From positions 5,704,001-5,768,000 of the forward strand of contig OY783216.1 in NCBI GenBank assembly GCA_963678705.1: a stretch of 64,000 nucleotides of DNA, given 5' to 3'. Positions 9,933 through 52,923 of the stretch are shown one piece after another (the first letter of the stretch is position 1; each line of letters opens with the position of its first letter). The DNA is from Panorpa germanica (Eukaryota > Arthropoda > Insecta > Mecoptera > Panorpidae). Under the pieces are notes generated by a model. It was not told where the DNA came from. It searched no databases and was given only the letters and a program-made list of their open reading frames with translations. The position numbers and the translations under genes were made by a program.

Positions 9933-10267
9933 CGTAAATTGTAATTAATCAAAGTGAGAAAATTTCCCGCTCATTTAGCAGTAAAGTGTCACTATCACAA
10001 AAAAGAACACATTACTTGGAATGTCACTATCACAAAGGATCACCAAAGTAAAGAAAGTTCTCGCGCACGTAGCCACAAAGATAGATATAACGATAATATA
10101 ATTTTTTCCGTGCTCTGAAATGCGACAGGATGGAATGACATATCAGTTGGTTGTCAAATCTAATGTCAAATACATATTGAGATTGCGTTCAGAATTTAAC
10201 TTAAGATTTATAATTTAATTTGTCTTTATTATTATTGATTTATCTTTCGATTTCTATATAGTCTTAT

Positions 10268-20135: not shown

Positions 20136-20484
20136 TCACTTAACGTTACACTTAACAAGAGAAGACTTCACGATAAACAGTTGTCGGTCGCTGGCGTTTG
20201 GCGCATACACACTTCTCCTATAGCACCGTCAGTCTCGTTATTAAATGATTAATATTGACTTTGATTATTTTTAAATTATGTTATTTTTACAACACTATTT
20301 TCGTTGACTGTTGTAGAGACTGCTAACTTCCCAACTTCCTAGATCTCTACCAATGATATACATACCAAATATCATAAATTATATTGTAGTTTAGGACAGA
20401 TATAATAACACATAGTAAATTTCCCAATAAGTATTAACTCACAGTGCTGTGTATACTATTAAATTATTTTATAATTATTTAAGA

Positions 20485-27062: not shown

Positions 27063-29662
27063 ATGATTAGAAAAATGTCTACTTTAATAAAAATGTTCTT
27101 TATCTTAAATATTGTTGGTCTATCTGTAACGCAGACACCAGCAGGAAGTAAGCAGTATTTGTAATTACCACGTCTACATTTGTAATAAAAATATGTGCTT
27201 TATGTAAAATTAGAGGGTTTCATTTTGTATACGATAGTTTAGTAATATGGCTTAGGTGGTTATCACAGTGGTTTGAATCTTGAGAGAATTTCTTGAGAAC
27301 TATACAAATGCTTCAAAAAGGCTTTTTAAAGAAAAGAATATGCTTTAAAATGTATAAATGGATGTAAAAATCTTTGATGTTACTAAATTCGAACGTGCAT
27401 ATACCCGTAATATAAGGGGATAAGCGTTTTACGATATATTTTCAGCTACATCTAGTAAAAAATAGATAAACTAATTCTATTTAGCTTCAATGCTTCCATT
27501 ATATCTAAAAGTTATTATATTTTATAATTAAAAATCTTAAATAAATGTACAAACCAAAAATTATAGCTAGTACGTATACAATTTTCTAAATATATTAAAA
27601 TAGGAAAGAACTATTTACTTTGTGTACAGAGTTAAATGTACAAAATGCCGGATTAAATTGAAATGACTATCGTATGCTTGTTAACAAATTGCGTATTTTA
27701 AAGATCAAATTTATCATTACTTAATAGAACGTAAGGATTTGCCAGAATACCTAAAGTCAATAAAATGGACCCCTAAAAATGAGTAGACTAACCCTTTGAA
27801 TAAAATAAAACTCAAAATTTTTATTTAATATTACAATTACCAAATATCGAATTTAAATAATCATAAATTGTTACATTAAAGATATATTTATAAAAAAATG
27901 TTTAATGTTTTATTTAAGAAACAACATGTAAGTATGATGCGATATTTCTTTCGATCAGATAAAAGAAAATATTCAAATATACGATACAATCATTTCCTAT
28001 TTGCTTTTATAAATACGCCAAAAATATCACTCGATTTTCACTCATTTTTATTAGAAAATCCCTTGATTTATTTTTTTTATTTATTAGAAATAAAATACTG
28101 GTGTAACTACACTTCAAATGCATTTGCCTCTCATTCACTCTCATTGCTCATATTGGAAATGAATCGAACATTGATTCAATTTATCTCGAGTCCGACTAGG
28201 TCATTTGATTTAATATTTTTAGGACAGATAGATGACAATATCGTTGGTATAATTGTAAATATACATTCTACAGATAACTACCTTAAAGTAAAATATTATT
28301 CTTACAAAAATAATGTGTGTCTTTCCATTGTTTATTTTGTTTTACTTATTACTATATTTACTTTTGTTACTATGTTAACTGGAATGTAAGATTGTTATTT
28401 AGAGTAAAATTCATAAGTCTAAAGGGCATTTTTAACGATAAGTGACCCAGTAAACATTTTGGAGTCACTTTGCCATCATATTGAAGATGCATATGATTTT
28501 TTTTGTCATGAAAGAACTGTAAATGAACAGTGCGAATTATAATTGAAGTGCAATAGTGATAGAAACGTCACAAAACAGAACACTTCACCAAATTGTTTAC
28601 TGAACTTCACTAATTAAAAATTTCTTTAATTTTTATAATATTTTAGGAATAGTGCGTAAGTAACAAAGATTTTATAGATTTATACTTGATTAACTAAATA
28701 TTACTACGTATTAATATTATCTTTAAAATTTAATCAAATCAGGAAAAACCAGTAAGTAATAAATAAATGAAACAAGTCTTATGACTTGTGAAGCATTTAG
28801 AAATTTAGGAATATAATTATATAGCAATATTCCTTGTAACTTCTACTTACTTACCGATACAGTTCAATTGTTTACAGAAGTTTAACATTAAGTGTTACAT
28901 TGACATTAAATAAATATAAAATACACTTAAATTCTATTATTAATATATTAGTTTAGGCCTTGTACAGTCTTGCCGAAAACTTTTGATTTATTTCAGAATC
29001 ATACATTTATTTCGAAAGATAATTTAATTATTCAATCTGTTTTTTATAAATACTTAAAAATGTTATGATACATACTTTTTTATATTAAATAAACCTTATA
29101 TAACTTTATAATTGAATTATGTAAATATGTATATGTATTTTCAGCGGAAGAAAGTATGTAGTTAAATATATTGCGTTTCAAACAAACAATCAAAAACTAA
29201 TATTAATACTATACATACACCTAAAAAAACAGTTACAACAAGTAAGCATGTCATTTATTCAATATTACAATAATAATACAATTACAATAATACGACGTCA
29301 TTAAAATGCTGACGCTATAACTAGTAACTAAACAAACGTATATTTAGAAATATAAAATTCTTTTATATAAAAATTATTATTCATATGGAATTTTATTTTA
29401 ATTTTATATAGGAGGTTATTGTAAGTAAATATTAACGATATATGTTTATATAACAATATTTGTTTTTAACAGTACTTAAAAATGATACTTAGTTCTAAAA
29501 ATATATTCAAAAAAACATTAATGTACTTATATTTCAATAGATGAAGGTAAGTAATACGGCTGTCTGTTAAAACCTATAAATAATTAAGGATTAAATTAAA
29601 AAATTATATAACTGCAAAAACCTATTTTATACCATTTATAAAACTACAATTTCTCTTAGAAT
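27063..29662 (+). CDS. Microexon gene 1, block 1: signal-peptide exon and 9/6-nt exons
   Basis: Exon 1 is 27063-27147 (85 nt, start MIRKMSTLIKMFFILNIVGL, ends phase 1 at GGA-A before GTAAGC). The next exons are 28647-28655, 28743-28751, 29145-29153, 29233-29241 and 29412-29420, all 9 nt, then 29541-29546 (6 nt) and 29660-29662 AAT. Joined residues after the signal peptide read RIVRKTTEEITTRGYYEE, a hydrophilic stretch without cysteine. A further 9-nt candidate, 27446-27454, has a good acceptor (TATATTTTCAG) but a weak donor (GTAAAA). If used, it adds Thr-Thr-Ser in frame. Intron 1 is long (~1.5 kb), and MITE-B copy 2 lies in it at 28446-28604, ending 42 bp before exon 2. Confidence 0.85.
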
Positions 29663-32600
29663 GTAAGCGTAAAAAAATATGAATATAGTTTCTTTCCTTT
29701 ATATTTTATGCTTTAATGGGCTTGTGTCCTATGTTTTAATTTCTATAAAAGTGTACTATATATTGATAAAGTGGGTTACTAGAACCTCAAATGTTCAATT
29801 ATTTTTTAATAACTCCTTATATGTTAAGAGATATTAATAATTAAAAAAGTCATTTTGTCTTTTTAATTATTAAAGGGATTCAACGTTGTACACATTCCAA
29901 ATGCATGTGACATCACAATCCTTGTGTAAGTTTACCAACCTTACAGCTCATAAAGCTCTGCTATATGTATTTATATATCAAAATATCAAATATAATTTAC
30001 AGCTATTTCAAGGAACAATCAAATTTCAATATTATGTCTGCCTTAGCAGGGTTAAATAACATAAAAACTTATTATTCTTTGATTTGACTTGATTATTTGA
30101 CTACCAACAGCTACAGAACATTACCACAGCACTGTCCTACTCAACAAATAACTGACGTTAAAATGCATTTCACGTCATACAAATATGGCCGACCATTTCT
30201 AGCGCTAAAACTACAATTCAAATTATTAATTGCTATATCTCTGTCAACATTTAGATATTTAATAAAATAGATACGCCAATACACATTTATTAACATCAAT
30301 TTCAATCAACAATTGAAAAATGAGGACACAAGCCCATTACTATAAGGGGTCTGTATTTGTTGGTAATAAGACTGACAATGTAGACTACTTATTGTGAAAG
30401 ATGAGACTCGCCTTCAGTACAAGTTTGAACTTGCTCGCGTCATTTGGTGTTTTGCCCGTAGTGATTTTGATTATGATTCAATTTACAGATAGTGAGTTGC
30501 CTGAATGCAACAATACTTTATCCTTATCATATTTTTAAAATTATTGATTCAATTAATTCTTTATTACTGCAGTACGTAAATATAATAATAAATATATATT
30601 ATTACAGATATTATTATTCTTTCCACGACTGAATATACATATATTATTATTAAAAATATTATATATTTTTGTGACAGCTTGTAAGTCTAATCTATACAAG
30701 AACAAATTCCCGAGCTTAAATTTGGAAGCATTATTTGTTCATTCAAATAATTTCTTAATTAATTCACAATTTTTAATAATAAGAAGTACAATTTCTTTTA
30801 ACTTATTGATTAAAAACAAAATCAGTGCGCTATACGCCCAGGGTAGGGATCCTGGCTTGCTTCATCTGCTTTTACATCCTACTTCCAGCGATGGTTAATT
30901 TTTGATTATAATAAATTTTTTTAATTTGTTTAATGAACAAAATCAGTATGTAAGTAGTATATTTACAAATGATTATATGGTATAACAATTTAGCTACAAA
31001 ATATCAAATTTATATTTTACCGCAAGAATTTATTTGGTGTACCGCCTTGTACGGTAAATGTATGGCTTCTGCTAATAAAATACCATAATATTTGACCTCG
31101 AAAGAAGGGAATTTGTAACATATGTTAAAAGTATAACATTATTCAACTTAATTTGAAGACATTAAATTATTAAATAAAATTATAAAGGTCGTAAGTCTTT
31201 TTATACAAAATTGTTATTCCCAGTAAACATTTTGGAGCATTTTGGAGTCACTTTGCCATCATATTGGAGATGCGTATGATTTTTTTGTCATGAAAGAGTT
31301 CATTTATAGTTCAGTTTCTCACAATCGTTCATATGAAATGTCTGTTTTATCGGGTACAGATGACGGAACTACTCCATCTGTCGGAATACAAATGAAGATA
31401 AAGTTGATGCGAACGTTGTGTCACAAAAAGGGACACTTCACCAAATGTTTACTGGGTTTTCATATCTTATTAAACTAAATAGAAAGAAAATGTTTTCTAC
31501 ATAATACGATTTCAAATTATGTTAACTGCAAATTTTTCTTATTAATATTACTAATGTTATAATATTCTGTAAATAAAGAAAGTGAGTATGTATAAGCGTA
31601 TGTACATAGTTGTTACAATTCCTGTTAGACATTATTTTAAAATTAAAATGTCCTTAATCTAGTTTGATTTCTTTAATTCGAATTGATTTATTTGCTATTA
31701 GGTAGTAAGTCAAATACCATACAGATGCTTTGAAATAATATAGGTATTTTAGAAGACAATACACTGTTTACAATTAAACGAATATTCTACAAACAGAACG
31801 TGAGTCAGTTATATATTGCAAACAATAACACATCATGACACTTCCCAGTAAACAATTTGGTGAAGTGTCCTATTTAGTGACGTTTCTATCACTATTTCAC
31901 TTCAATTATAGTTCGCATCAACTTTATCTTCACTTATATTCCGACAGGTGTAATTTCGCGATTTGTAGCCGATAAAGTAGACATTTTATATGAAAGACTG
32001 TGAGAAACTGAACTATAAACGAACTCTTTCATGACAAAAGCATCATGACGCATCTTCAATATGATGTCAAAGTGACTCCAAAATGTTTACTGGGTTTGAT
32101 CATTACTTTATGAGTACCAGCAGTTTTAGGGATACTACTTTTGTAATTTTCAAAACAATGATTCCATCTAAATTTTGTGTGATGATAAAGCATTGCTTTA
32201 TAATGTGAATAAATACCGTTCCCAGTAAACATTTGGTGAAGTGCCCTATTTTGTGACGTTTCTATCACTATTTCACTTCAATTATAGTTCGCAACAACTT
32301 TATCTTCATTTGTATTCCGACAGGTGGAGTGGTTCTGTCATCTGTAGCCGATAAAACAGACATTTCATATGAAGAATTGTGAGAAACTGAACTCTTTCAT
32401 GACAAAAAATCATACGCATCTCCAATATGATGTCAAAGTGACTCCAAAATGTTTACTGGGTTCAAGCAAAGCAATGTCTTGACAATTATTATTCCGACTC
32501 AGTAATTTTTTTTATTTAAAAGAAATGCTTTATCAACACACGAAATACAGATGACACATCTTTGTTTTAAACATTACAAAAGTTCAGGGAATTACTACAC

Positions 32601-35600
32601 TATTTAGCAGAAACTGTTTTGGAGGGACGATGGAACCTTGATCTCGAAAGCAAAATGCTCCATTATTAATTATCTTTAAATGTCAAATATTATCCAACAT
32701 TTGGTATTACTATTATTACTGCATATTTAAAAAAATAGATTGTATGTTGAACGATATTTTCTGAGTTTTTAAATATTAATGTTCCTTTAAATGGCTTGTA
32801 TCTTAATAAAGTCTAAAATACTTTTTCAGCCATCTTACGTAAGTTATTGAATAGCCACATCATAGTTAACACAAAATTTTACTACAATTATAAATGTTTT
32901 TATATTATTATTGTTTTTCTAATAAAATAAACAGCATGTAAGTGAAATTACACTTTAAAAAAAAACATTCTAAAATATTATTCTTACCTACGTTTTACGT
33001 TTGGTTTTGATGTTATATTTAATTGCAAGAATAGTATTGTTGTGTGACCATAGAACCACTTAAGAGATCTATACAAAAAACCATCTTCAAACTATAAAAG
33101 TAGCTCAAACAATTAGAGAACTGACGTACTAAGTTAGCGGACGGTACGAAAACGAATATGCGTTTTCGTTTCCTGCATAAGTGTTAGTTTTATGTTTTAG
33201 TATTACAATCTTTTTAAAACTTAAAACTTAGATTATGAGAATGCACTCTACGTACATTTAAAACTAAAACTTAAAGCAGTATGAGGGAATGAGCCTTTTT
33301 TTTCAATTTTATTGTGAACTTAATTATTTTTATGGAGTCTAAAAGAGTTGACCACAATTATTTTCTAATTTTTAAAACAATTAAAAAACTTATCAACTTA
33401 TTCGTGGAATGTATCTATTCAGAATCACATTTAGTATAATTCTGATAAAGGTAGAGAATTTTATACAATACAACCAATACTGAGACGTAAGCCATGGTTT
33501 GCCAAACTAAAATGGCCAAGAAGATTAATTACAATGACCTCAAGACTAAGAATGAATCATACTGGAGCTCCGAAACATCTAGCAAGAAACAAAATCATTC
33601 CAAACTCTAAATGCGAATGTGGTGAAGATGAGGCAGATCCTGAACTACATTCTGTGGCAATGTAAAAATACATCAATGGCAAGAAATGGACTCCAACGGG
33701 CGGTGCTACAGACTTCGCAGACGCTTCCTGTTAACACCGCCTTTTTGATTGAGAAACCGAAATTTATAACAGCAGTAGCCATGAATAGATCATTCTTGTT
33801 GTCTGGCTATAAAGTATAAGAAGAAGCAGAACAATATTAGGGGCGATAAAAGGCTACGTGCCTAGGAAGCCCGAGAGACTATATTAAAAAAAAATCACAT
33901 TTAGTCTGTTTTATTAATGTTACTATCTATTAAATTAAATATATCCAGTATAAATTTGTATAATCCTTTAGTTGTTAAACCACTGATGCAGATATTCCTA
34001 TTTATCATCTAACAGGCAGTATGTACTTTTTAACCTAAGAAGCACTTATTAAATTCAACAAAAAAATTATGTATTTTAATACTTACTTTTTCAAAATAGT
34101 CTGTGAGTATATTTTTCAAACTTGACAAAAAACAAAAACAGTCAAATACCACTCTTTAAACACCTTATATTTTTAATTGGCTGCAACAGGCAGTAAGATT
34201 AATTCTGTATTTAATATTTGTATTGAAACATAAATTATCGTGATGTATTTAATTTTCTATTGACACGCTTTTAAATAGATGGTAATTGTGTATATTAATT
34301 AATTAAATTAATGGAAAATATTTTAAAAAAACTTTTGGTATTAATTATCACCATATGTTTCAGTAATTCTAATGTTTTCTTTATTACCATTCAACAACTC
34401 AGACCGTAAGATACATTTTAAATTGAATACTAGATCGTTCAGTTTATTAGATCATTAGATTAGACGAACTAGAAGGACGCAAAGTGCTCGGTTTTGTAAA
34501 AGTGTTTCAAAAATAAACATAGAAAATCATTTAATTTTTTTTAAATTAAATAACAACTAAAAACAATGAAATATTTAAGAAATAATACATTGTGATAAAA
34601 ATATTTTTATTTTATTATGAAATTAACCAGAGCTATAAAATTTTTCTAGCTATAATATTTTACAAAGGGTTAGAAAGGGAACTTCTTTTTTTGACGCAAA
34701 CTTTAAGTAAATTTTCTTTTGCATCAATTTATGAACATATTTACACAAAACGAATATTATAAAATGACAGAGATGTAACCTGTTGCGTTGAGTACTTTTG
34801 CCAGGAGTTAAAAAAATTAATATTTTCTTGTAACGTCAATAGAAAAAGACACTCAAACCAAGAAAGAAATATTCCATATATACAGTAAGTGAGTACCGTT
34901 AAATTCATTCAGACTCATGAGCCATTAAAATTAGTTTTTCTGTTGTACAGCCTGAATGCTAAAATAACTGATAGACAGTAAGTGATATACTTCTATCCAT
35001 CGGTGTAAGTAGTCTTGCATTACGAATTTTAGTTGAACGTTGCTCCATTTAATTTCGGTAAACACATTCCTAAATAAGTCGTCGTAGATTGACATATAGA
35101 TGGCGCTACTATTGAGAAATACATTTGATTTTCAGATAGTACCAATCTTCAAACGATATGTGTACAAATTTCTTGATATTCCGACCATTAACTTAGTTAC
35201 AATGGTTTTAGCGAAGGTACTCTTGTAATTCTCAAAATAATGGAAAATCAAGCATTGCTTTTCAATGGGAAAAAATGCGAAACAATTTTCTTTAATTTTT
35301 ATATAAAAATATATTCGTTTTTATGAAATAATTATAACTATTACAAACATTGGATTACTTTCAATAATTGGCTTCAAAAGGCCCCGAATGTGAGTAACTG
35401 GAATGATGAAATAAATATTTTTAAACATCAATCAGATATTTTTAAATTTACTTGTTTGTACTCGTATTATGATTTTAATTAAAGAAATAGAAATTAAGAT
35501 AGAATTAGAAAACGTGCAACGTTAAAACGTATTCGTAAGAACGAAAAAATAATATCATTTGTATTTAATAGACTGTAAGTTTTACAAAAATTATTTATCC

Positions 35601-38600
35601 ATTCAATAAAGTTATTATAAAGACAATACGACATAGATATTAATTTTTCTTTTAAAAATATAGGCAGTAAGTATAAATATTTTGATATACGGTCAAAAAT
35701 TAAAAGGGAATTTCATAAAATTGTATTTTAGTTTGTTATGTATGTTTGTTTAGACTACTAATTCAATCTGTAAGAATCTGCATGACATCTTTATCAATTT
35801 ATATACAAGGGTCTCTAGGATGACGCCTTTTTATCTCTCACTGCACATTAATTGCAGATCCACAATTAATCTAATAAGTCTTGTCAGCACCTGATTAGAA
35901 CCTCATATATTTCAGTCCTTATAATGAGACAAAATCTTTTTTCTTTTTGTTAATATCTTCTATAATATTGCGACTACTTCATTTAATAATATGTTATAGT
36001 AATATATATATGCAAAATATAATCATGAGTCATTGACACTATGATACTGTAAGAGGTGATTAAACTAGCACCAGTAATTAAAGAAAATCAAAATATTTCT
36101 CGATAAACATAATTGAGTTTGTGAGTAACGTTATTAATAAAATTGACATAAAACTTTTATTTCATATTTATTTATGTAAAATATACATTAATTATGTTTA
36201 GAAGAAATAGCTTTTTAGTGTTAAATGACATCATTATATTCCTTTATACTATTTCTTATATATTTGTATTAAAAGGCTGTAAGTCAGTAATTTCTATTGT
36301 TGTGTACGTACGTTGTGCGCTTTGTGGGCTCGGGTCAGTTTGTTTGTGATGTGTAAATTTAATTAATTAACATTCGTTAACTAATTTCAAGTTGCAGTCA
36401 GAACTTTTGTGTATATTAAACGATCATTTAGAGATGTGGCCGAGTGCACTACCGCTTTCACAATAATTTGTTAAATTTCTACTGCAATGTATCTCCTGTT
36501 TTGTAATAAATATATTAGCCAATATTAGCCAAGAAATCCTACACCAGGGTGGAGACATAGTTCTTTTTAATTATGTTTTTTTTAATTTCATTATTTATAC
36601 ATGCAGCCAGTGAGTCAACTATAAATATAATTTCTTAAAGGTGCAACACACACTGAACATACCTAATCATTTATGGACGAGATGAACATAGTTGTGGGGC
36701 CTTTAATAAACACTTTTTGAATTTATGAGTATACTTCATCCGGCTATCCTATTGTATACGTCATGCACTTTTATTATCATAACTAAATTACATTTTATCA
36801 CACAATGCAGATAGTAAGTATAAGTAATTATTAAGCTGATGTAATATCATTTCTAATCAAAGGAAATATTATTTTCTTTTACTTAATTTTACTTTAGAAA
36901 TAAAGAATTATTTGTTCATATCAAAACAGATTGTAAGTTACTAGGCATTTAAATACTACATCAACATGTTTTTAACAGTATTATCGGGACATACATATAC
37001 CAGGCGTGTTTTTTAAGTAAGTACCGTTTTGGAATTAAAAAAAGACGTGCAAAGATATCGCAATAATTTTATTTTTACAAGAAAGCCTGTACCTTAATCT
37101 ACTTTTCTACATAATTTCCGTGAATATTGAGGCACTTGTCATAACGTGGCACCAGTTTTTGAATACCCTCCTCATAAAATTCTGCCGCCTGACTTAAGTT
37201 AACAATTGTTAACCACTGTATCACAAGACCGAAGGACGCCCACTCCATTCTTCATCATGCACATTTGTGCGGCCATCTTTAAATGCTCTCACTCATTTCC
37301 TTACCATTCCATCACTCATAATGTTTTGTCCGTAAACTTCACAGATCTCACGATGAATATCGATCGATTTACGCCTTTAGCACTAAGAAATCGTATATCA
37401 GCCCGTACTTCACAATCGGCGAGACTCACGATTGTCGGTGGCATCTTAAACACTCAGTAAACAACGTATACAATGAAGAATCAGACTGTAATGGCGTCAG
37501 TGCGTAGACAAGAGATGTAGGTAACCAGCGCGCATGCGCGGAACGCCGACCGTAGCGCTGCAAAGGCGGAAACGCAAAACGGTACTTACTTAAAAAACAT
37601 GCCTCGTATATTATTTATTAATTTTATTTGATTTTATCATGCAGCCAGTAAGTACATTGACTTTTATTAGGTATATAAATAATTTAAATGATAAAAAAAT
37701 TGAAATTGGATCAAATTTAGTCATTAATAATGTATCAATGTAATGTAATGTATGTATATACTAGATTACCAACTGAAACGTAACAATATAAACTAAAATA
37801 TTTCGTAATGGTAAACTTCAAATGTCTGATTTAATTACTTTAAAATAATCTCTTATTTAATTGGGAAATTAGTAAATTACATCACAAATACATCAATAAT
37901 TATTAAATATCTTAAATATTGTTTAAAATTGTTCCATACTTGGATTTATCATTAGTCGTTTCTAATTTTTAATGATACAGTAGGTATGTTATTTCTTTTT
38001 TATATTAATATTTTCTTTTCTTATAATTTTCATTTAATCACCAGTTTTTTAAATTTCAAATGAGAAGATCATCCCGGTAAGTAATTTAATTTTAAAAACT
38101 AATGCGGTAGACATGGCAACTACAGTTTTAATTTAAAGTTTTACGTATATTACATATTATGGTGTATTTTTTAACTCAAATGTTGTGTATTTATTTATTT
38201 TTCATCAGATTGTAAGTTTTTAGCATTAGGTTATTGTATAATAATAACCATATGTTAAGACAATCCGATAGTTTGAAAAGGGCCACGTCTTAAAACAAAA
38301 TTTCTAGCTTTCTATCCTTTTGTTTAATGTATTACAGTCTTGCGCAGCATAATAGTTTTTTATTTAAAAAAATATAGGCAGTAAGTCTGAATTTATATTA
38401 CTGATATTATAAAACCGACGTTTATTTAACAAATAAATAAAATGATTATTCTTTCTTTATTATAATAAAAACGGTATATTAATTTAAATTAAAAATAAAA
38501 TTAGTTTGTGAGTTTATTTAAGTTAGTTGGATAATGTACAAGATGCCGATATAACAAGGAAGACCTAAAATAAACTTTGTGACATTATTTTAGGCTGTAA

Positions 38601-41600
38601 GTAGATTTAGTAATTGATTTTCTCAAATCTAATAAACATTTTTGACAAAGACAATATGTTCTCTATTTTAAAATAAATAATATATTTAGACTTATATCTG
38701 AATTTTTCAGTGGGTAAATATGCCTTTATATAAATATATATTAACTTAAATCTAAGTTTTATTTTTTTTCTGCTTATTATTCAGATGATTTCTAGAAGAA
38801 AAAAAGTTGAACTTTTCTTTGATTCCATTTTAGTTTTTATGCGGATAGCTTAGTTATTTTCATGTCTCAAACGTTACTTGAAAATATGAAGGATAGGAAA
38901 ATATGATACAATAATATTGAATGTTTATTAATACGAAAATATAAGCTTTGTAATTAGATTTTTAATTAACATCATAAAAAGACGGTAAGAAAACATAATA
39001 ATATTATTAACGAGCTTATAAATTTACTAATATGAACTCATAGAATCTTTATAATAATTATAATCCAAGTTTCAAATACTTCACTTGCTCCAACGGCTGA
39101 CTATATGCAAAAAAACTTCAGCGCCATCCATTTGTGTCGTTTTAAGTCAAATGTTGTTATTATTTTTAAAGGATGTATGTATTTTTAAGAAAATATACTT
39201 TTGTTGAAGTTTGCAGTTTATGAATATGAATTAAACTCAACTTACTAAGCTGTGATCAAATCTTTTCACTATACAAAATTGTTGAGCATAAACAAAATGA
39301 GCTTTCATTACATGATAATTATTTACAATGTAAAACAAAATTAGATAGTAAGTTTTAATATTTGTAATACATTCTATGCTACTCAATAATTATTCTTCGC
39401 TAGCTGAAACCTTTCAATGACTTTCACAACAGGAAGTAATGTAACATAGTTATCATTTTTAATTAAAAATAGTTAAAAAGCTTTTTTTTTTAATAAAAAT
39501 AACATTTTTTCTTTCTTGGTTATTTCATGGTATTCAGAACTTAGTAAGTTTTACATTAAATATAATTTGTGTTATATTATTATAACACATATTATATTAC
39601 ATATTCTATACATATAACAGACGGTGAGTTCAAAAATGTGGCGTGAAAATTATTGATGAGTATTAGCAACAAAATTAATTTGCAACATTGTTGTTGAAAA
39701 TTAAACCTGTAACAACCTGCAACTATTATTGTTATAGATAAATGAATACGCTTATTTAACGTTACAGGCAGTAAGTATTTTGAAAAAGTATACATTCTAA
39801 TGAAATATTTTTAAATTAATTCGACTCCGTATTTAATTATAAACAGAATGTAAGAGAATTGATAATTTAAAGATAAAGTAATACTTCAAATTTATTATTA
39901 TTATATTTCTTAAATAAATAACTACAATAAAAGATATAAAAGGTTATGGGAAAATAATGTGCCTCAGTACCTTATAGAAAAAGACATAAAACACATAAGA
40001 AGAACAGCAAGGTTTAGATTGGGAAATGAGGAAAAAGGAAACAGATACTGGGAAAAGAGTGAGGAAAGAAAGTGTAGAATGTGCGGAGCGGAGGACAAAA
40101 CACTGGAGCACATTAAGTTTGAGTGTAAGGAAAAAGTAGCGAGCGAAAGGAATATCGGCCAGCTATTAAAGGGAGGCAGTGAAGGAAAGAGGTGGATGGC
40201 GGAAATAGTAAGAAGGAAAGAAAAAAACAGGAGAATAAATAAGCTGGTGGAGAATAATGTAAATTTAATTGTAATTTGAAATATGTATTATATATATGTA
40301 TATAAATATGTAATTGTATTAAGAATGTAGATTGTAAAGCCGAAAGGCGAACAATAAACAATAAATAATATTATTATTTAATTTATTAAATATTTATGTA
40401 GGTGGTATGTGCTTCTCTATCTGCTTTCTTCTTATCTATGCAATTATTCAATATTTAAAATTATATTAAAATAAATCTACAGTTGTACTTTATTAAAAAC
40501 GATTGCGTTTCCAGTTTCCAGATTGAATTCAGTGTAAATCTGCAACAAATTTCTATTTATCAAACTAATTATTAGGATCTCATGTGTGTTTCCATTAAGT
40601 TTAGTCACAATATTATTGAATATGAACAATTAAAATATTCCAAAAGCAACTCCGATCACAAGGCAATGTGGTTTATTCTTATCATTTTCATTATTTGCAG
40701 TCCGTAAGATCATTTTATAAATTATTAAAAATATATTTGCACTGCACAATTTTAGAAAGAAATAATAATAATAATAATTAAAAATTTTAACCAAAGAATT
40801 TTATAAAAAAAGTAAACTTTTCTATATTAAACAAACCTCTATTTTGTTTTGTCTTTTGTAGAAGATGATATTTACATTTAATCAACAAAATTAATTTTAT
40901 TAGTTCGTAAGTAGCATACCTAAATGCAAATGCATTTTGAATTTTCTGATATTTTATCACTGTAAATATTTCATGATATTTTTTTATTATTGTTTCCTAA
41001 TTTGGTACGCATCAATGATAATATTAAACAAACAGAATGTAAGAAACATTCTTAAGCATTTTTTAAGTATTAGTTCTGATAACATGCCAATGCATAAAAT
41101 TGTTTTCTAAATTAATATTAATTTTAATTGTTTAGTTTTAAAAATGTATATTAAAAATAATTTCTAATTTTAATATACTCGTTAACATTTGCCTATTAAA
41201 TTTGCATTATATTTAAAAACATTTTTAATAGTGTAATAATGAATTTTTAATTCAATCAGGTCGTAAGTAAAAACAATTATTTTTATAAGAAATTATCCTC
41301 AGTTGTAGAAGTAAGAAGGACACATTACTGAGACTTTGATTTCTACAAGTAAATAATATTTATTTCAAAATCTAGACAGTAAGAACTTTATCTTTTTATT
41401 TATAGTAAAGGCCATCAAATAATAATTAATTATATATCCATCCGCATTCCATTAAGACAAATCTAAACGGGTACAACTGATGCTTAACCCACCATATCGA
41501 TTGATAAGGAATGATTCCTTATTTTATATCACAATATAGTGATAATTGATTGTTCATCAGAATGTAAGTAAAACAATTGTGTTTAAAGAAATATTACAAC

Positions 41601-44600
41601 CCTTTATTAAACTTTTTTTTTTATTTTATTATTATCTCAATGAGTTAACAGCAATCTGCCAGTGCAGGCAATAAGCTTATGATATGACATATTATAAAAG
41701 TGACATGTGAGAGAATCAATCCAATGACTGATCTCTGTAATTATTACATTCTATGTTACAAGATATTCTTTATTATTACTTTATTAAACTTAAATGTTAT
41801 TTAATATTAGCGCAGCCAGGAAGATGATGTCGTGAATATACTGTTGCTAATTTTAACTGCTTATTAATTAATAATTTTCTTGTTAATAGACCGTAAGCAA
41901 TTGCTTAAATTAAATGGGTCTACTAAGACCGTGAGGCCCCTCTCCACCTCATATACACTCGTATATGATCCTGATTTTACGTTTTCCATAAAGTTGGTAA
42001 GCGAAATGTGAATTGAACTGCTTGAAGTTAAAAAATTTGCAAAGTAATGTAGAACATTAAAGTAAAATTATTTTTGAAAGTATATTTTTATTACTATACA
42101 AATAGAACGTATGTACATATCTTTCCATTACACAGGTCCGGTCATAGGTAGGGGCAATCGCCACAGGCCCTACCATTGAATTTCTAGATTTTAATTATTG
42201 TCCTCCGGAAGATAAGTGAAAAGGACATTCTTTTAAATCATACGCGAAATGAAACCGTTACTATTTATCTTACTCATCATTACTTAGTGTGACTCTGTGT
42301 GGCACATTTAAATGTTTACACGAGACATCTGTTACTTTTGTGCGAGACAATTCCGCGCATTTCAGGACGTCTGGCATGACAAATTTACTAAACCCAATGT
42401 AATACTTCCACATACACATTCATAAACCTACAATAATCCAAAAAAAATAATAAATAAAAAGAAACGTTAATTTAATAATGAAAATCCAATAAAAATATTT
42501 TCAGAAAGTATTATATAAAAATAAATTTAATACTTTTTTAACATGTGTAGCAGGTGTACTACGCGTAGTACACAAACTTGAAAAACCCGTTTAGAAAATC
42601 GTGCTTGTATCGACCTTGCAAGGACGCGTTTGTAAAATCAGTGATGTATTCGAGTTTTCTATTATGGTTGTAAAAACGGATGTAAAATAGTTGAAAATGA
42701 CTCTAGTGCACCCTTGTGAGTTTTTAAATGGCTACGGTATTTTCATTCAAATAAATAAACAAAAATGAATGAACAAGTTGATTCATTGATAAATAGTGAA
42801 ATAGGTTATAGGTTTTTAAACTGTGATACTTGGTCGGTGGTGTTTTATGAGTTTTACGAGATTATATAACTTTACATTGGACAGAAATAAATTATATTGA
42901 TTGAATGAAAATATTAATTCATTAGTTGGTGAGTTAAGATACTTATACAAAGACTTAGTAGTTAGTACGAAAGTGTGCTATTCTTGAGATAATCTTACCT
43001 ACTACCATGTGCACGTGCGATTTAGTGGTAGATTTTATTTTCAGTTTTTATTTTTTAAATTTAACAGTTACTTAAATATGTGTTTTTATATTATTGTTGC
43101 CGTCTCTTTCGTACTAAATAGTACTGCTCTAACACATTATCTCTGATAATTTTACTTACTGTGTTCTTCATTAGAGAGTAAGTATTGTTTATTAATTTCT
43201 ACAAATAGGTACAAAACATCGTTTATCATATGGGTTAAGAACAAAATCGGGAATTGATAGTAAATGCGGTAAAAAAGCAGTGGTAACACAACAAACTTTA
43301 TCACGGACACATTTCTGAATAGTTGCGCCTGCTCAAAATACAATGAGCTTGTGTCCTATGTCTTAATTTCTATAACAGTGTACTATATATTGATAAAGTG
43401 GGTTACTAAAACCTCAAATGTTCAATAATTTTTTAATAACTCCTTAATGTTAAGAGATATTAACAATTAAAAAAGTCATTTTGTCTCTTTAATTATTAAA
43501 GGGATTCAACGTTGTACACATTCCAAGTGCATGTGACATCACAATCCTTGTGTAAGGTTACCAACCTTACAGATCATAAATCTCTGCTATATGTATTTAT
43601 ATATCAAAATATCAAATATTAGTTACAGCTATTTCAAGGAACAATCAAATTTCAATATTATGTCTGCCTTAACAGGGTAAAAATAAAAACTTATTAATCT
43701 TTGACTTGACTTGATTATTTCGACTACCAACAGCTACAAAACATTACCACAGCACTGACCTACTTAACAAATAACTGATGTTAAAATGCATTTCACGTCA
43801 TACAAATATGGCCGACCATTTCTAGCGCTAAAACTACAATTCAAACTTTTAATTGCTATATATCCGTCAACATTTAGATATTTAATAAAATAGACACGCC
43901 AATACACATTTATTAACATCAATTTGAATCAACAATTGAAAAATCGACTACTAAAAAATGAGGACACAAGCCCATTATTACAGATCATTATTAATAGAGA
44001 AATAAGGGTCTGATGTACAGTGTGGTGCTCGCTAACTCTCCTTGCTCGTTTTTTAGCAATAAAGATGACGAAAAACACCGGCAAAGTATTAACAAATAGA
44101 AAACGTGCTGTATCTAGAAAAAATAAAACGCACTGGTTTAATTTGCCTATATATCAAAAGTATCGAAATCCTTAAGTCAACTATATAGATACATTATAAT
44201 ATTGGAGCTATAATTAATTTTTCAAAGTGCGTAAGTTGAGTATAGATATAGTTAAAATAACCACACAAATTATTTTATAAGTGCGTATAAGTATAAAATG
44301 TATGAAGTACTTTGTTTAAATACAAATTTAGAGTAAAATTCGATATAATTTTGCAAAGTTTCGGACTGGCATTAATATGTATACACTATATGTAAATACA
44401 ACATTATATTTTCTATTTTATATTTAAAAGGGCGTAAGTTCATAGCATTTAATAATATATTCAGAACTTTTTGAAGGTAAATTGTACAGAATATATAAAA
44501 TATTAAACATTATTCAACTTCAGCAATTCAATAACAATAGTCATAATTAAATTTTGACTACTTTGTAGTTTAAAACAATAATTATAAAACACTTATTGTG

Positions 44601-46739
44601 TGTTGCTTTTTTTATTTACTGATAGCTTGTAAGTTACTATTACTAATTACTACTGATAATTATTTCTTCTGTTTAACATCTATTGTAATTTTTATGTAAC
44701 TGTATGTAAATGCTTATTTAAACTAATACCTATTGTGTACAGATTGTGAGTTATCCCGTTATTAATTGCAATTATACTTTCTTTTTCTTTCTCCAAATCT
44801 TTTTCCAAAAATACTTTATAAAATTAATTAACAAATTAAAATTTACACAACGTAATTGTTAGCCATATGTTTGAAATCACTGATCGTCTTAAAATCTGTA
44901 GAAAATAATAAGTAATCTTTGTATATAAAATTATAATGTATTACTGTGACAATTGCTAGTGCTGAGACGTTTATTTCTGCATCTCTTTTACACTATCTTG
45001 TTTAAAAGCGACAGCAATAATAGTGGCGAAAAGGGATTTTGAATTTTTTTGTACACATTTCAGATTCTGATCGCGAACTTTATCAATATACTGTACAGTG
45101 AAGCTCTTTCGCAGTTTTCTTTAGAGTTACTTAATTACAAATGATTACTATTTATTAACAGGTTGTAAGTACTAAATTCAGTATAGCTACTAGCGCTTAC
45201 GCGATAAAGCGATTATCTTAATAATTAAAATTAAAAAGTTAAACAAATTATTTTATAATCTTAGTTACTTTTCTCACGCAATCAGTTGTAAAAAAGTCCT
45301 GTTTTAGCAAACTTATTATTTTACATTTTGAAGACATTACATAGTTCCCCCATCACGCTTTTCAGTTTAAAACTTATTTCTTATTTAAATATAACGTAAT
45401 CGCTTGTGTTCATGTACGAAACAGTATGTAAGTAACTAAACTAAATAATTGTATCCATAAATATGAAAATAGGAAAGAAAAACAATATTTTACGTCATAA
45501 CCCTTTCACATAGGCGGTAAGTTTAAGTGCTCCAAAGGGCACTAAACATATTGCAATATGTGTGTTGAAACACAAAACATGTGTTCAACACATGTGTTGA
45601 AACTGATACAAAATAAATTACAATTTCATTTGACAAGAATTGTATTTTGAACCAACATTTTGCGATGGTTGTGAATTTAATATTTTGATATTTTTATCTA
45701 AAATTATATACATTGTTTTTTAATTTATTAAGACTATGGACCATGCAAACTAAAATAAATTATTGTTTTCTTACTCAACCAGCTGGTGAGTCAGTAATTC
45801 AAGTCAGTTACAAAAATTGGAAAAACAGCTAAATTCGTATTTTAGATACGTACGGTACTACTTATTATTATTTTAACAAAACTTATGTTTGCTTTTGGTT
45901 TATTGAACTGTCAACAAAAATATAATACAGACGGTGAGTTCAATAGTTTCTAAAAATATAAACTGAATTACATGCAAGTTTCTAAACAGATATTTTATAA
46001 TTAGGACGTAAGTCTATATTGTTTCGCCTAATATCTAAAAGTATTAGAAATACTGTAAAATCAGTTTTGTAATTAATCGATTTTTAGTATTCTGTGTCTT
46101 AAAAATTACGATGCAGTATGTTTAAACATCGTGTGCAAATTATGTATAATGCCGAATCACACATACGTGTTCGTGTATGAATGACTAAAGCGAATATACG
46201 TACACAAACATACAGCAAAAATATTCGTGTTACCAGTTTGAACAGTTCGTGTCACAAACAACATGTGTAAACCTCCCACCAACAATGTAAACATTAGAAA
46301 AAATTGATAATAACAGTTTGATATTATATATTTAGTACGTAAGTGAACTTATTAATTTTAACAAGAGTATCCTTCTTTCATTTCAAATAACACAGAAATA
46401 TTATTTTCAGCGCCTGATCAATATGCAACTACAATACAAGTATATATGTTTGCATTCTTATCAGGCGCTGTAATTTATAAACTAATATTTCAATCGATGA
46501 AACAAATAATTAACCTTATCTGGTAATATATATATTGTTTAATAAATGACATGTTTCATATTTAAATTATTGCTATACAATTATTTTTAGAAATTTAATT
46601 AATTACTTCATAAGATAAATAATTTACTAAACCGTTGACAAAGTACAAATATTTATTATTACAAACATGTAATAATCTCTGTTACTTCTTTCCTTTTTAT
46701 TACACTCACACACACACACACATATATATATATATAATA

Positions 46740-46798
<59 letters not shown>

Positions 46799-47964
46799 TA
46801 TCTAATATTAACAGCTCGTGAGTTATTTACCGCCATTTTATGCTAATAATTAATGCCTAATTAAAAACTTCTCAAAAATTAAAAAAAAATATAGCAAGTA
46901 TGTCAAATTACATATTTAATTTATCTGTGTTCTATCATTGATGATATGATTATAATTTAATCGATGCATTTGTACATTAGGTTGTACGTATTGACTTAGT
47001 ATATGTATTGGTTATTGAATCAATACATTTTTTTTGACGGCAGTTTTAAATCAGTTTATTTGATGACTACTAATATATTATAATTCAGGCGGTTAGTCAA
47101 ATTTACAACACATAGTTTTTAGTTCTTAAAGAATTTAATTTGCAACCCTAAAATGAATTTGAATCACTCAATCATAGTTTTAATCCTTAATTAATTTTAT
47201 TTAATGATTTTCATATTCTTTTGAATTGGTTTTCTATCAACTACTAGCTCTGCCATTTGAGGACTGTAAGAACAAGATCTTAATAAAAATTAAGTGTAAA
47301 TGATATCTCTTTTAATATTTCTTTAGTAGATTTTAGCGGACTCAAAATACAACCCTAACATTTAGACTGGTTATACGCTATACGCTGGGAGATATTCGGG
47401 CAGTTACGTTTGACTATTTACAAGGTTTAATGCTCTTCATTGTCACTATTCTGGCAAATACGTCATGATAAAGCAAATAAAATTGCTAACTATATAATTA
47501 TTATTGAAACTCAAATATGTGTTTAACAATTGTAGTCTTAAATTAAATATTTTAACAAGATTTCAACAATCTTCTCTTTTTTAATCAGCTGAAGAATATG
47601 AAGCCCGTAAGTTTAATAGGCTCTCACATTTACTTAAACGGCAACAATATTGCAGTGATATTTCTATATTCAAATCTGTACTTAACCACTTGCGCCTGAA
47701 AGTATGCAACGCAAATTACTTGATAAAAACAAGTAACGTATTTAGTACGTAGTTTTCAACTCTGTCTAAGGTACATTATGACGTGTATAATACGTGGTGA
47801 TATAGAGCGAAGGGTTTTAATACAGTTAAAATATACTTAGATATTATTAAGAAATATGCATTTATAAAATTAATTATACATTTTCAGCTCCAGTAGAATC
47901 TGCTGCATCCGTTTCTACCTTTACTGCCGTCGGCATCGTTAGCTGGATTACTGTTCTCTTTTAA
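27063..47964 (+). CDS. Microexon gene 1: secreted Cys-rich protein from ~73 coding exons, 59 of 3 nt
   Basis: A gene whose coding sequence (about 459 nt, 152 aa) is spread over 20.9 kb. Exon 1 encodes a signal peptide and the last exon a hydrophobic tail. Between them are 8 exons of 9 nt, 2 of 6, 2 of 18 and 59 of exactly 3 nt, each between an AG acceptor and a GT donor (51 of the 59 with GTAAG or GTGAG). All introns are phase 1. Joined, they read without a stop and give 11 cysteines with repeated C-x-C: CQSKPILPC, EYCICSNNSIDHPDCIC, NGKCVLQC, YCLCADGLPRC. Microexons reading TAA and TAG (34886, 37981) are harmless only in this phase. The protein should enter the secretory route and may be membrane-held. 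Function unknown; no family recognised. Exons at 31579, 36118 and 42505 have weaker sites, and a possible 9-nt exon at 27446-27454 (CTACATCTA) was left out of the count. Exon lists are in the block entries. Confidence 0.85.
28446..28604 (+). repeat. MITE family B, copy 2 (internally deleted)
   Basis: Starts CCCAGTAAACATTTTGGAGT and ends CACCAAATTGTTTACTGAA; the middle part of the longer copies is missing. It lies in intron 1 of microexon gene 1. Confidence 0.85.
29715..30338 (+). repeat. MITE family A, copy 5
   Basis: AATGGGCTTGTGTCC at the left, GGACACAAGCCCATT at the right, ~624 bp. It lies between the 3-nt exons at 29660 and 30489 of microexon gene 1. Confidence 0.92.
30489..34977 (+). 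CDS. Microexon gene 1, block 2: exons 9 to 21
   Basis: Three-base exons by first position: 30489 ATA, 30678 CTT, 31188 GTC, 31579 AAA (weak acceptor), 31702 GTA, 31797 AAC. Then a 9-nt exon, 32830-32838 (CCATCTTAC), followed by 32935 CAT, 34016 GCA, 34190 GCA, 34403 ACC, 34886 TAA, 34975 ACA. Read in phase 1, with the flanking exons, they give YTCQSKPILPCSNLN. The shortest introns are 86 to 104 nt (34889-34974, 31705-31796, 32839-32934). Introns here also hold three MITE-B copies and a LINE fragment, none touching an exon. Confidence 0.8.
31219..31456 (+). repeat. MITE family B, copy 3
   Basis: CCCAGTAAACATTTTGGAG at the left and CACCAAATGTTTACTGGG at the right: terminal inverted repeats of about 14 bp. 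238 bp, non-coding. It starts 28 bp after the 3-nt exon at 31188. Confidence 0.9.
31844..32094 (-). repeat. MITE family B, copy 4
   Basis: Opposite orientation: begins CCCAGTAAACAATTTGGTGA and ends CAAAATGTTTACTGGG. 251 bp. Confidence 0.9.
32221..32460 (-). repeat. MITE family B, copy 5
   Basis: Begins CCCAGTAAACATTTGGTGAA and ends CCAAAATGTTTACTGGG. 240 bp, same orientation as copy 4, only 126 bp away. Confidence 0.9.
33484..33893 (+). mobile_element. LINE 3' fragment of a second family
   Basis: Translates, with frameshifts and stops, to FAKLKWPRRLITMTSRLRMN, GAPKHLARNKIIPNSKCECG and EDEADPELHS, the C-terminal zinc-knuckle region of a non-LTR element, followed by a 3'UTR and an A-rich end. 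Unlike the LINE copies at 570 and 39919. Defective. It lies in an intron of microexon gene 1. Confidence 0.7.
35381..39347 (+). CDS. Microexon gene 1, block 3: the C-x-C core, exons 22 to 39
   Basis: 35381-35389 (GCCCCGAAT, 9 nt), then 3-nt exons 35572 ACT, 35664 GCA, 36118 TTT, 36276 GCT, 36607 CCA, 36811 ATA, 36930 ATT, 37645 CCA, 37981 TAG, then 38068-38076 (ATCATCCCG, 9 nt), then 38209 ATT, 38378 GCA, 38505 TTT, 38594 GCT, 38711 TGG, 38982 ACG, 39345 ATA. They give SPEYCICSNNSIDHPDCICL and then DD. The exon series GCA, TTT, GCT occurs twice, each time encoding C-I-C. The acceptor of 36118 lacks a good pyrimidine tract, but its place in the repeated series supports it. A mariner remnant (36997-37610) sits in one intron. 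Confidence 0.85.
36997..37610 (-). mobile_element. Internally deleted mariner element
   Basis: Terminal inverted repeats of about 30 bp: left CAGGCGTGTTTTTTAAGTAA, right TTACTTAAAAAACATGCCTC, flanked by TA. The minus strand from about 37205 to 37098 encodes the transposase C-terminus (AAEFYEEGIQKLVPRYDKCL, then N...GNYVEK). The rest of the transposase is deleted or broken. It lies between the 3-nt exons at 36930 and 37645. Confidence 0.88.
39538..43177 (+). CDS. Microexon gene 1, block 4: exons 40 to 56
   Basis: 39538-39543 (AACTTA, 6 nt), then 39621 ACG, 39768 GCA, 39847 AAT, 40402 GTG, 40701 TCC, 40904 TTC, 41036 AAT, 41260 GTC, 41376 ACA, 41561 AAT, 41890 ACC, 41994 TTG, 42106 AAC, 42505 AAA (donor GTATTA, weak), 42926 TTG, 43175 AGA. 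They give KLNGKCVLQCHKYLEQIE. A LINE copy (39919-40376) inserted between the exons at 39847 and 40402, ending about 25 bp before the acceptor of the latter. At 41668-41670, GCA follows a perfect AG acceptor but its donor reads ATAAGC instead of GTAAGC; it looks like a dead microexon that would add a cysteine. Confidence 0.8.
39919..40376 (+). mobile_element. 5'-truncated LINE copy
   Basis: Nearly identical to 1169-1680: NYNKRYKRLWENNVPQYLIE, then the CRMCGAEDKTLEHIKFEC knuckle and the 3' tail with TGTAAAGCCGAAAGGCGAAC. The high identity to the copy at the left edge indicates recent activity. It lies inside an intron of microexon gene 1. Confidence 0.9.
43342..43976 (+). repeat. MITE family A, copy 6
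   Basis: AATGAGCTTGTGTCC at the left (one change), GGACACAAGCCCATT at the right, ~635 bp. It lies in the intron between exons 43175 and 44228. Confidence 0.92.
44228..47091 (+). CDS. Microexon gene 1, block 5: exons 57 to 70, all 3 nt
   Basis: 44228 TGC, 44431 GGC, 44626 CTT, 44743 ATT, 45162 GTT, 45425 TAT, 45514 GCG, 45783 CTG, 45931 ACG, 46005 GAC, 46336 TAC, 46815 CTC, 46981 GTT (donor GTACGT), 47089 GCG (donor GTTAGT). In phase 1 they give MRPYCLCADGLPRC, a third C-x-C group. Donors are otherwise GTAAGT or GTGAGT throughout. A long CA/TA microsatellite (46708-46796) lies just before the acceptor of 46815. Confidence 0.85.
46409..46472. repeat. Perfect 11-bp inverted repeat (possible hairpin)
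   Basis: CAGCGCCTGAT is matched in inverse by ATCAGGCGCTG about 40 bases further on, in the intron between the 3-nt exons 46336 and 46815. The left arm includes a good acceptor (TTATTTTCAG), so the structure could hide it. Confidence 0.7.
46708..46796. repeat. CA/TA microsatellite
   Basis: A short CA run followed by a long TA run with two small interruptions, directly upstream of the 3-nt exon at 46815. Confidence 0.95.
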
Positions 47965-48424: not shown

Positions 48425-48990
48425 AATGGGCTTGTGTCCTATGTCTATAAAAGTGTACTATATATTGAAAAAGTGGATTACTAGAACCTCAAATGTTCAA
48501 TTATTTTTTAATAACTCCTTATATGTTAGGAGATATTAACAATTAAAAAAAGTCATTTTGTCTCTTTAATTATTAAAGGAATTCAACGTTGTACACATTC
48601 CAAGTGCATGTGACATCACAATCCTTGTGTAAGGTTACCAACCTTACAGCTCATAAATCTCTGCTATATGTATTTATATATCAAAATATCAAATATTATT
48701 TACAGTTATTTCAAGGAACAATCAAATTTCAATATTATGTCTGCCTTAGCAGGGTTAAATAAAATAAAAATTTATTATTCTTTGATTTGACTTGATTATT
48801 TGACTACCAACAGCTACAAAACATTACTAAGGTACTGACCCACTCAACAAATAACTGACGTAAAAATGCATTTCACGTCATACAAATATGGCCGACCATT
48901 TCTAGCGCTAAAACTACAGTTCAAATTTTTAATTGCTATATCTTTGTCAACATTTAGATATTTAATAAAATAGACACACCAATACACATT
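48425..48990 (+). repeat. MITE family A, copy 7 (right end missing)
   Basis: Left end AATGGGCTTGTGTCC. The sequence follows the family to CAATACACATT and then stops before the right terminal repeat. It is just downstream of microexon gene 1. Confidence 0.88.
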
Positions 48991-49555
48991 CATTTTGAGA
49001 ATCAGTGGAATATTACAATTTGATGTTTATTGAGAATACAGAATAGAGTTTGAATACCACTTTGCACTTATCTTAAAACAAACAATATTAAATACTCAGT
49101 ACTTGTGGAACTCGAAGGAGTACTTTAGTGAACAAATGATATCGCTGTACTTAGGAATTGTTAAAGTCGACTATGCTTTGCGTATTTTCTACACTTTCTA
49201 CAATTAGTAAACTCGTTGCTGATTTGTTTAGTATTCTTAGGTTCTAACTTACTTCAGTTATTTAAGGGCATTTGCTTTATATTTAACGGTAATTTCGTGA
49301 TACGGCCTACTACACCACCCATAATAGAATATCTAGGTATAATGGATTAATCAACTATAGTGTAGACTCAAACCATTTTCTAACAATATCGTTTCACAGC
49401 TTCCACGAGATGTACATCGCAAAGATTAGTGCCAACTTAAAAAGTGAATTAACCCACGTGATCTACAATCATAGTTTACTGTATATAATTTCAAATCATT
49501 TGTTTTGATTTAATTTTTATAAATATACTTTAATTACATTTTATTTAATTGTATC

Positions 49556-51312: not shown

Positions 51313-51493
51313 CTGAAAATTAAATGTAATATTAATAATGATTTAATAAATTATGTAATCGTTATATAGCATTACTTACATTGATTAATATGTTTGTATT
51401 GTTAGACCCTGATTAAACAGCGGGCCAAGTTGGCTGCAATGAAGAGGACCAGTCCTATGATGAACTTGTTGGGGCTAATCATTGAAGCTAACT
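51313..51493 (-). CDS. Microexon gene 2, terminal coding exon and 3'UTR intron
   Basis: Coding part 51493-51402 after acceptor TTTTCAG. It reads, in phase 1, ELASMISPNKFIIGLVLF, then IAANLARCLIRV and the stop TAA (51404-51402). This is one hydrophobic segment followed by a short basic end, so a membrane anchor is more likely than GPI here. A probable 3'UTR intron (51379-51313, GTAAGT...TTTTCAG, 67 nt) begins 22 nt after the stop, the same arrangement as in gene 1. Confidence 0.82.
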
Positions 51494-52829: not shown

Positions 52830-52873
<44 letters not shown>

Positions 52874-52877
52874 CAAT

Positions 52878-52923
<46 letters not shown>

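Follow-up and report, generated by a model that had tools for sequence, protein, structure and literature searches.

P and Q, two convergent genes in a 64 kb stretch of DNA, very probably belong to a dispersed set of insect genes of like build, in which most modelled internal exons measure three nucleotides (nt). The stretch, hereafter the window, is the whole of the DNA analysed at first and covers positions 5704001-5768000 of contig C13 in a genome of 464 Mb and 249 contigs; its other contents (JHBP-like genes, a Helitron helicase, LINE pieces) are those of an insect. Gene P lies on the plus strand (27063-47964), and gene Q lies on the minus strand and runs past the right edge of the window. 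A first-pass annotation had proposed a gene of mostly 3-nt exons for P, and the features that can be tested on the DNA support such a coding gene, presumably spliced. What the annotation says is not wrong but incomplete: there are further genes of this kind, and the exon counts shift slightly.

Results

Three-nucleotide units in the window

The pattern AG-N3-GTRAG occurs 106 times on the two strands of the window, compared to a mean of 7.27 (sd 2.44, maximum 14) in 100 shuffled sequences. It was partly on this comparison that the first-pass annotation had staked its proposal. The units sit at 27-48 kb on the plus strand and at 52-64 kb on the minus strand. Strong enrichment is confined to a spacing of 3 nt: other spacings from 0 to 30 nt occur at most 13 times per strand, with 1-13 occurrences each on the entire plus strand.

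The earlier count of 59 plus-strand units could be reproduced (63 in the full 64 kb, 59 of them within 24001-48000), but three of these are not 3-nt exons in our preferred model of P. Exon 1 ends with the first of them (27145-27147), an 18-nt exon with the last (47604-47606), and the unit at 41928, 38 nt past the preceding one, is absent from both models of P. The array of P covers about 20 kb and not 17 kb as originally given, and the second array, on the minus strand (51757-63943), had escaped attention.

Structure of gene P

Exons were modelled with a chain model whose splice-site matrices were trained on the AG-N3-GTRAG units themselves. Applied to P without a frame rule and with a flat length preference, it returned 66 exons, 47 of them of 3 nt. 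The lengths of 62 of the 66 are multiples of 3, a regularity that the first-pass annotation had reported and that here arises unforced. With a preference for 3 nt, still without a frame rule, 74 of 74 exons are multiples of 3. Three other stretches of the window, scanned identically, yielded 9, 6 and 18 exons without a single one of 3 nt. Forty dinucleotide shuffles of the P region yielded four 3-nt exons in total, never more than one in a shuffle; the highest score was 36.6, versus 179.4 for the real sequence. Without a stop rule, the three frames of P contain 2, 10 and 0 stops, and the sole stop-free frame is the one whose phase exon 1 and the tail exon dictate, in agreement with the open joined frame described before.

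Exon 1 of P (27063-27147, plus strand, 85 nt) carries the start codon and a predicted signal peptide, MIRKMSTLIKMFFILNIVGLSVTQT-PAG, and ends in phase 1; it was assigned by reading of the sequence and by a hydropathy-ranked scan for first exons with a phase-1 donor. The last exon (47888-47964, plus strand), likewise read from the sequence and recovered by a last-exon scan, encodes PVESAASVSTFTAVGIVSWITVLF followed by the stop and enters in phase 1. Both ends are thus as initially described. By eye and hydropathy, the small residues and subsequent hydrophobic tail of the last exon point to a GPI-anchor or membrane signal.

Between these two, our preferred model, backed by the chain model and its shuffle control, places 78 internal exons (27567-47606, plus strand), of which 67 are of 3 nt, 8 of 9 nt, 2 of 6 nt and 1 of 18 nt. 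A second parameter set gives 74 internal exons, 65 of 3 nt, with 73 exons common to both. The two sets disagree at 27567, 29145, 38711 and 46895, and at the 3' end of the array, where 47589-47606 stands against 47604-47606. We favour exon 38711, present in the 78-exon model only, and the 18-nt exon (47589-47606) on the grounds of their likeness to gene R (see below) and their splice scores. The additional 3-nt exons of the model of P use GTATGT, GTAAAT, GTACGT or GTTAGT donors. Introns measure 71-1078 nt (median 190). The gene extends over 20,902 bp for a coding sequence of 465 nt, and its predicted product of 154 amino acids (aa) consists of signal peptide, Thr-rich stretch, C-x-C repeat region and C-terminal hydrophobic tail. 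Two runs of exons recur in the comparisons below. A 9-nt exon encoding Ser-Ile-Leu (32830-32838, plus strand) is followed by 3-nt exons at 32935, 34016, 34100 and 34190, which spell Pro-Cys-Ile-Cys. Further downstream on the same strand (38378-39347), 3-nt exons at 38378, 38505, 38594, 38711, 38982, 39172 and 39345 spell Cys-Ile-Cys-Leu-Asp-Gly-Tyr.

Gene Q and its duplicated introns

The last exon of Q (51402-51493, minus strand, 92 nt including the stop) was found by the last-exon scan and encodes ELASMISPNKFIIGLVLFIAANLARCLIRV. The window holds 51 of the 124 modelled internal exons (51757-63943, minus strand), 47 of them of 3 nt, and also the longest, a 24-nt exon encoding RPEPYDQE (62445-62468, minus strand). 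The signal-peptide exon lies to the right of the window (C13:5794630-5794558). In the entire model 108 internal exons are of 3 nt, 11 of 6 nt, 4 of 9 nt and 1 of 24 nt; the predicted product has 204 aa and the gene 39,229 bp.

Nearly all introns from 13 to 51 of Q, which interrupt an acidic, Gly/Pro/Arg-rich part, resemble others among these introns, with identities of about 67-100%, and three of them are 100% identical over 119 nt. From this identity we conclude that units of exon plus intron duplicate in tandem, every copy adding one or two residues. In the Cys-rich part of Q the introns show no mutual match except for scattered repeat-like pieces. An origin of the introns from one recent family of the introner type was unsupported, matches beyond the duplicated block of Q being scattered and transposon-like. 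Also rejected was a separate minus-strand gene with its first exon at 63631-63565: its apparent signal peptide corresponds to the pyrimidine-rich end of an intron of 82 nt that separates two good 3-nt exons, the scan for the last exon of an upstream gene gave nothing convincing, and a single model of Q spans the whole region.

Genes of like build elsewhere in the genome

Three further genes were modelled. R, on contig C1, has 88 modelled internal exons over 115 kb, 84 of them of 3 nt, and ends in a tail exon; no first exon of R turned up in the sequence scanned. The tandem pair W1 and W2 lies at C13:10.25-10.28 Mb. Of the internal exons modelled, 28 of 32 in W1 and 39 of 54 in W2 measure 3 nt; the first exon of W1 and the last exon of W2 were not found within the stretch of C13 examined. 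Hydropathy scans gave signal-peptide exons of matching phase for P, Q and W2, and tail exons in matching phase are present in P, Q, R and W1. The predicted proteins of P, Q and R are Cys-rich, those of W1 and W2 are not. Internal exons in all five models are multiples of 3 and start at codon position 2; all five were constrained to start and end in the phase typical of bicycle genes (see Discussion), and because stops were ruled out in building the final model of P and those of Q, R, W1 and W2, part of their openness is imposed.

Concerning the frame without that rule, the window part of Q contains 3, 9 and 0 stops by frame, in an exon set that included a later-dropped 42-nt exon. Stops counted in strict triplets without a stop rule number 1, 2, 1 and 2 in the exon-aligned frame of P, Q, R and W and 0, 3, 1 and 2 in the predicted frame, counts which, taken alone, are modestly informative at most; for W the count did not differ significantly from shuffled order (0.10). 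The 42-nt exon of Q, as well as a 36-nt and a 57-nt exon of R, arose under looser limits alone and disappeared with a maximum of 30 nt.

P, Q and R share a 9-nt exon followed by four 3-nt exons spelling P-C-[IV]-C. To the Ser-Ile-Leu of P corresponds Ser-Val-Leu in R, followed by Pro-Cys-Val-Cys, and Q has Gly-Tyr-Pro followed by Pro-Cys-Val-Cys. In the alignment of P and Q the program matched this exon of Q to another exon of 9 nt in P, which encodes Asp-His-Pro. The counterpart in R of the second exon run of P reads Cys-Val-Cys-Met-Asp-Gly-Trp. Aligned exon by exon, P and R, which lie on different contigs, score 113 versus a null maximum of 51, and W1 and W2 score 62 versus 33 (300 shuffles each). 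Exons of equal length make up 55 of 56 aligned pairs for P-R and 25 of 25 for W1-W2, with the reservation that the scoring rewarded equality and that most exons are of 3 nt. The P-Q alignment was not significant (3 of 300 shuffles reach its score) and that of Q-R is borderline (1 of 300).

The similarity of P and R appears in the predicted frame only (z 10.3 versus -0.3 and 1.6 in the others), with Cys at 11 of 89 and 11 of 93 residues, and that of W1 and W2 is strongest in the predicted frame (z 8.0 versus 3.2 and 4.3). Differences at the first, second and third codon position number 21, 17 and 35 in 58 codons of P-R and 12, 9 and 17 in 27 codons of W1-W2, tallied from amino-acid alignments, which biases them toward a third-position excess. 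In nine paired exons of W1 and W2, chosen as the best-matching stretch, 22 of 27 bases are kept, compared to about 41-47% in the flanks beyond the splice consensus, and the introns barely align. The DNA by itself establishes the array, the exon lengths and the open frame in P, and shows P and R to be paralogues, as it does W1 and W2. The membership of Q would follow from its build and motif, its sequence homology not being significant, and the relation of the W genes to P and R consists, as far as the DNA goes, in a likeness of build.

Genome-wide occurrence and tandem units

A plain pattern, YAGNNNGTAAGT, matches 6057 times genome-wide, its reverse 5463 times. Four stricter consensus patterns match 84, 46, 24 and 56 times versus 16, 41, 10 and 12 for the reversed controls, the second thus barely exceeding its control (46 versus 41). 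These 210 matches form 15 same-strand clusters on 7 contigs, a cluster being at least three same-strand matches with neighbours within 50 kb. Random placement gave a mean of 0.02 clusters and a maximum of 1 in 500 placements; this control scatters the matches uniformly on one line, and genomic repeats would cluster too. Four of the 15 clusters are P, Q, R and W, and the other 11 are known from pattern matches alone; repeats may account for those on C2 and C21.

Two clusters on C8 (9730015-9738851, minus strand, and 9810807-9835863, plus strand) form a mirror-image pair. Among the matches listed, five pairs share their triplet (GAC, ATA, GGC, TAA, CAC) with flanks identical or diverged, and four more matches have no partner, which suggests an inverted gene duplication. 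A CAC triplet with a similar flank is also found at C8:8371414. On C2 (3187503-3979593 and 8433789-8443182, plus strand), two or three microexon-like units of similar spacing recur in many copies, which would be either repeat elements or genes in an array. On C21 (31518812-31536015, minus strand), three identical units lie 8.6 kb apart among the matches listed, probably by tandem duplication.

Upstream of R, 19 units stand in tandem on the plus strand (C1:1162021-1197929), mostly 113-120 bp apart. Their central triplets vary (entropy 1.47, 1.78 and 1.09 bits) between nearly invariant flanks; since the search pattern itself restricts the flanks, the comparison used positions outside it, where the downstream flank shows a mean entropy of about 0.27 bits. 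The donor is broken in one unit (ATAAAA) and reads GTAAAA in two. By strand and position the 19 units would belong to R, and if they are exons of R, the codon is the evolving part.

Splice signals

Donors of the GTAAG or GTGAG type are found at 79-92% of the 3-nt exons across the five models. The 20 bases ahead of the acceptor AG contain no further AG in 259 of the 290 units that the pattern alone had identified in P, Q, R and W. The corresponding figures are 36 of 185 for units of other spacing from these regions and 3 of 15 for matches of this pattern on the opposite strand of R and W. The AG-free zone was not required of the units, while GT-AG is imposed by the models. With GT-AG ends, GTRAGT-like donors and the AG-free zone, the introns have the characteristics of ordinary U2-type introns. 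They are best read as such, in real genes that would be processed by the ordinary spliceosome.

Similarity searches and neighbouring elements

A search with the P protein gave no relatives at E<=10 in 5.8 billion, by a method that also missed the neighbouring JHBP-like protein, for which the control search returned nothing at E<=1e-10, so that its sensitivity is weak. In Pfam neither P nor R came near a cut-off (best FXa_inhibition with E=2 for P and PIF3 with E=0.17 for R). A PDB search with part of P returned two rows at chance level, and Rfam gave nothing at gathering scores in the window. No match was found to the lepidopteran 30K lipoprotein family, an uninformative result, as its controls gave none either.

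The window further contains two JHBP/takeout-like genes with ordinary exons on the plus strand (about 13604-16149 and 20431-23025), each with one exon scoring in Pfam (21.9 and 27.1 bits, below the cut-off of 29.2) and the remainder recognised by eye. A Helitron helicase ORF with Helitron_like_N and PIF1 lies at 5344-8700 on the minus strand, adjoined by ORFs at 8733-9944, and LINE-like pieces, by eye of one family, lie at 577-1491, 39914-40279 and 51993-52514. An inverted repeat (48441-48994 and 50329-50885) with arms 91-95% complementary separates the 3' ends of the convergent genes P and Q; by eye it resembles sequence near the JHBP genes and is probably a transposable element.

Discussion

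We hold with high confidence that the observations are explained by a set of split-codon genes with probably ordered splicing by intron definition and growth by tandem units. The coding sequence between the signal-peptide and tail exons would be split by a GT-AG intron after nearly every codon's first base. The two splice complexes are not expected to fit on a 3-nt exon together. Intron definition would therefore account for the recognition of each intron (71 nt to 1.1 kb in P), for which the strong donors and AG-free acceptors speak, as they hold information that a 3-nt exon cannot. Since both sites flanking an exon could not be occupied together, the introns are probably removed in order. 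Each removal would append one codon to the growing upstream exon, in the manner of a recursive-splicing ratchet which retains three bases per step. Such an architecture would be tolerable because all modelled exons are multiples of 3 in one phase, so that a skipped exon loses one or a few residues and never the frame. The arrays would expand by tandem duplication of exon-plus-intron units, as seen directly in Q and as probable upstream of R.

A tentative and rather doubtful extension is that both splicing and evolution have the codon as their unit and not the exon, with duplication, selective divergence and combinatorial variants through in-frame skipping. Single-codon exon-intron units would then duplicate in tandem, and the codon would diverge under selection inside a nearly frozen intron. 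If true, in-frame skipping of dozens of exons would allow one locus to encode an enormous set of protein variants.

Among the other explanations, we consider it unlikely, though deserving of a hearing, that these genes belong, in highly derived form, to the bicycle family, a group of hemipteran effector genes, or have an ancestor in common with it. Bicycle genes are described from aphids, phylloxerans and scale insects, and their internal exons begin at codon position 2 (PMC9168663), as do those found here. Exon phase, signal peptide, many tiny exons and fast protein divergence are all bicycle-like, and the secretion signal was met with in P, Q and W2, by hydropathy scan only. The published structure-only classifier, with its authors' way of counting phase, gives linear scores of 89.7 for P and 141.4 for Q and would on structure accept both; however, this score is driven by exon number and phase convention (P drops to -92.0 if counted as phase 1), and the classifier was trained on an aphid. 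Bicycle genes have about 17 exons on average (PMC9168663), whereas about 80-126 exons encode 154-204 aa here. Many unusually small internal exons are a trait that P shares with the family, but with 67 of 78 measuring 3 nt they are far smaller than those described in the sections of the bicycle papers drawn on here. The CYC motifs of bicycle proteins lie far apart, e.g. C30 and C92 in g3873 (PMC13041983), apparently unlike the C-x-C repeats seen in our genes. A C-terminal hydrophobic tail is not among the bicycle features given in the consulted portions of PMC9168663 and PMC13041983. As a weak hint of the order of the insect, all 11 rows that name an organism among the 32 matches of the LINE piece 577-1491 are Hymenoptera.

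Far less probable is that the units form non-coding splice-site arrays, as recursive ratchet points or as decoy exons in non-coding RNA. At recursive ratchet points, an intron is removed stepwise at an adjoining acceptor and donor, and no sequence is left. The resemblance of a 3-nt exon between consensus acceptor and donor to such a site, and the extent of P and Q (20 and 39 kb), favour this reading. However, the zero-length AG|GTRAG units expected of recursive splice sites occur at background level in the 64 kb (3 on the plus and 7 on the minus strand), and the multiple-of-3 lengths, the one open frame, the fitting signal and tail exons and the frame-limited alignment of P and R argue for coding sequence. 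Slighter still is the chance that these genes were once ordinary and have since decayed or been misassembled, with the arrays as leftovers of insertions: LINE pieces do lie within an intron each of P (39914-40279) and Q (51993-52514), and the donors of some modelled 3-nt exons are weak, but the frame of P is open throughout, acceptors and donors are strong, the exon bases of W1 and W2 are kept while the introns diverge, and clusters of units occur at 15 places on 7 contigs.

The set of split-codon genes, if so spliced, has several implications. Exons of 3 nt were previously single, rare cases; here there are 65-108 per predicted transcript, with introns down to 71 nt. The genes would make it possible to test how a cell recognises exons below the size that exon definition requires, and how strictly the order of intron removal is kept. 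The tandem exon-intron duplication in Q provides a concrete path by which one-codon exons multiply. Gene finders and aligners which disallow 3-nt exons would miss such genes, and others may hide in other genomes.

In the literature covered, which is a part of the whole and leaves their absence unproven, no gene made mainly of 3-nt exons is described. Bicycle and megacycle genes are alike in their tiny exons starting at codon position 2, their signal peptide and their fast-evolving secreted products. Aphid megacycle genes have more than 100 microexons (PMC9168663), and their internal duplication resembles the tandem unit duplication reported here (PMC9168663, PMC13041983). They differ in that one megacycle example uses 118 exons for 2092 aa, compared to about 80-126 exons for 154-204 aa here. 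Bicycle proteins have saposin-like folds and wide CYC spacing, in which they may differ too; exons mainly of 3 nt are unmentioned in the consulted parts of these two papers.

The micro-exon genes (MEGs) of Schistosoma are similar in their mostly short multiple-of-three exons, long introns and secreted products (PMC10526429). They have 10-20 very short exons, mostly of 15 bp, with a range of 6-81 bp in the text and 3-81 bp in the abstract, and their central exons are alternatively spliced (PMC10526429). Exons of that size class do not prevail here, 67 of 78 internal exons of P and 108 of 124 of Q measuring 3 nt. Further differences are that MEGs belong to a flatworm and that no series of single-codon exons is described in the part of PMC10526429 available to us.

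Known 3-nt microexons such as micro-exon 8 of Drosophila homothorax (PMC7392893) and those of RPS24 (PMC11162997, PMC12686416) show that splicing of such exons is possible; in the sections consulted they come as one or few per gene, in contrast to the dozens in series found here. Ratchet points of recursive splicing, a subject treated in PMC13149111, share the stepwise removal and differ in that the genes described here would retain three bases per step. We regard the gene set as an extreme form of micro-exon genes and, if transcripts confirm the models, it would appear to represent the most extreme gene splitting known to us.
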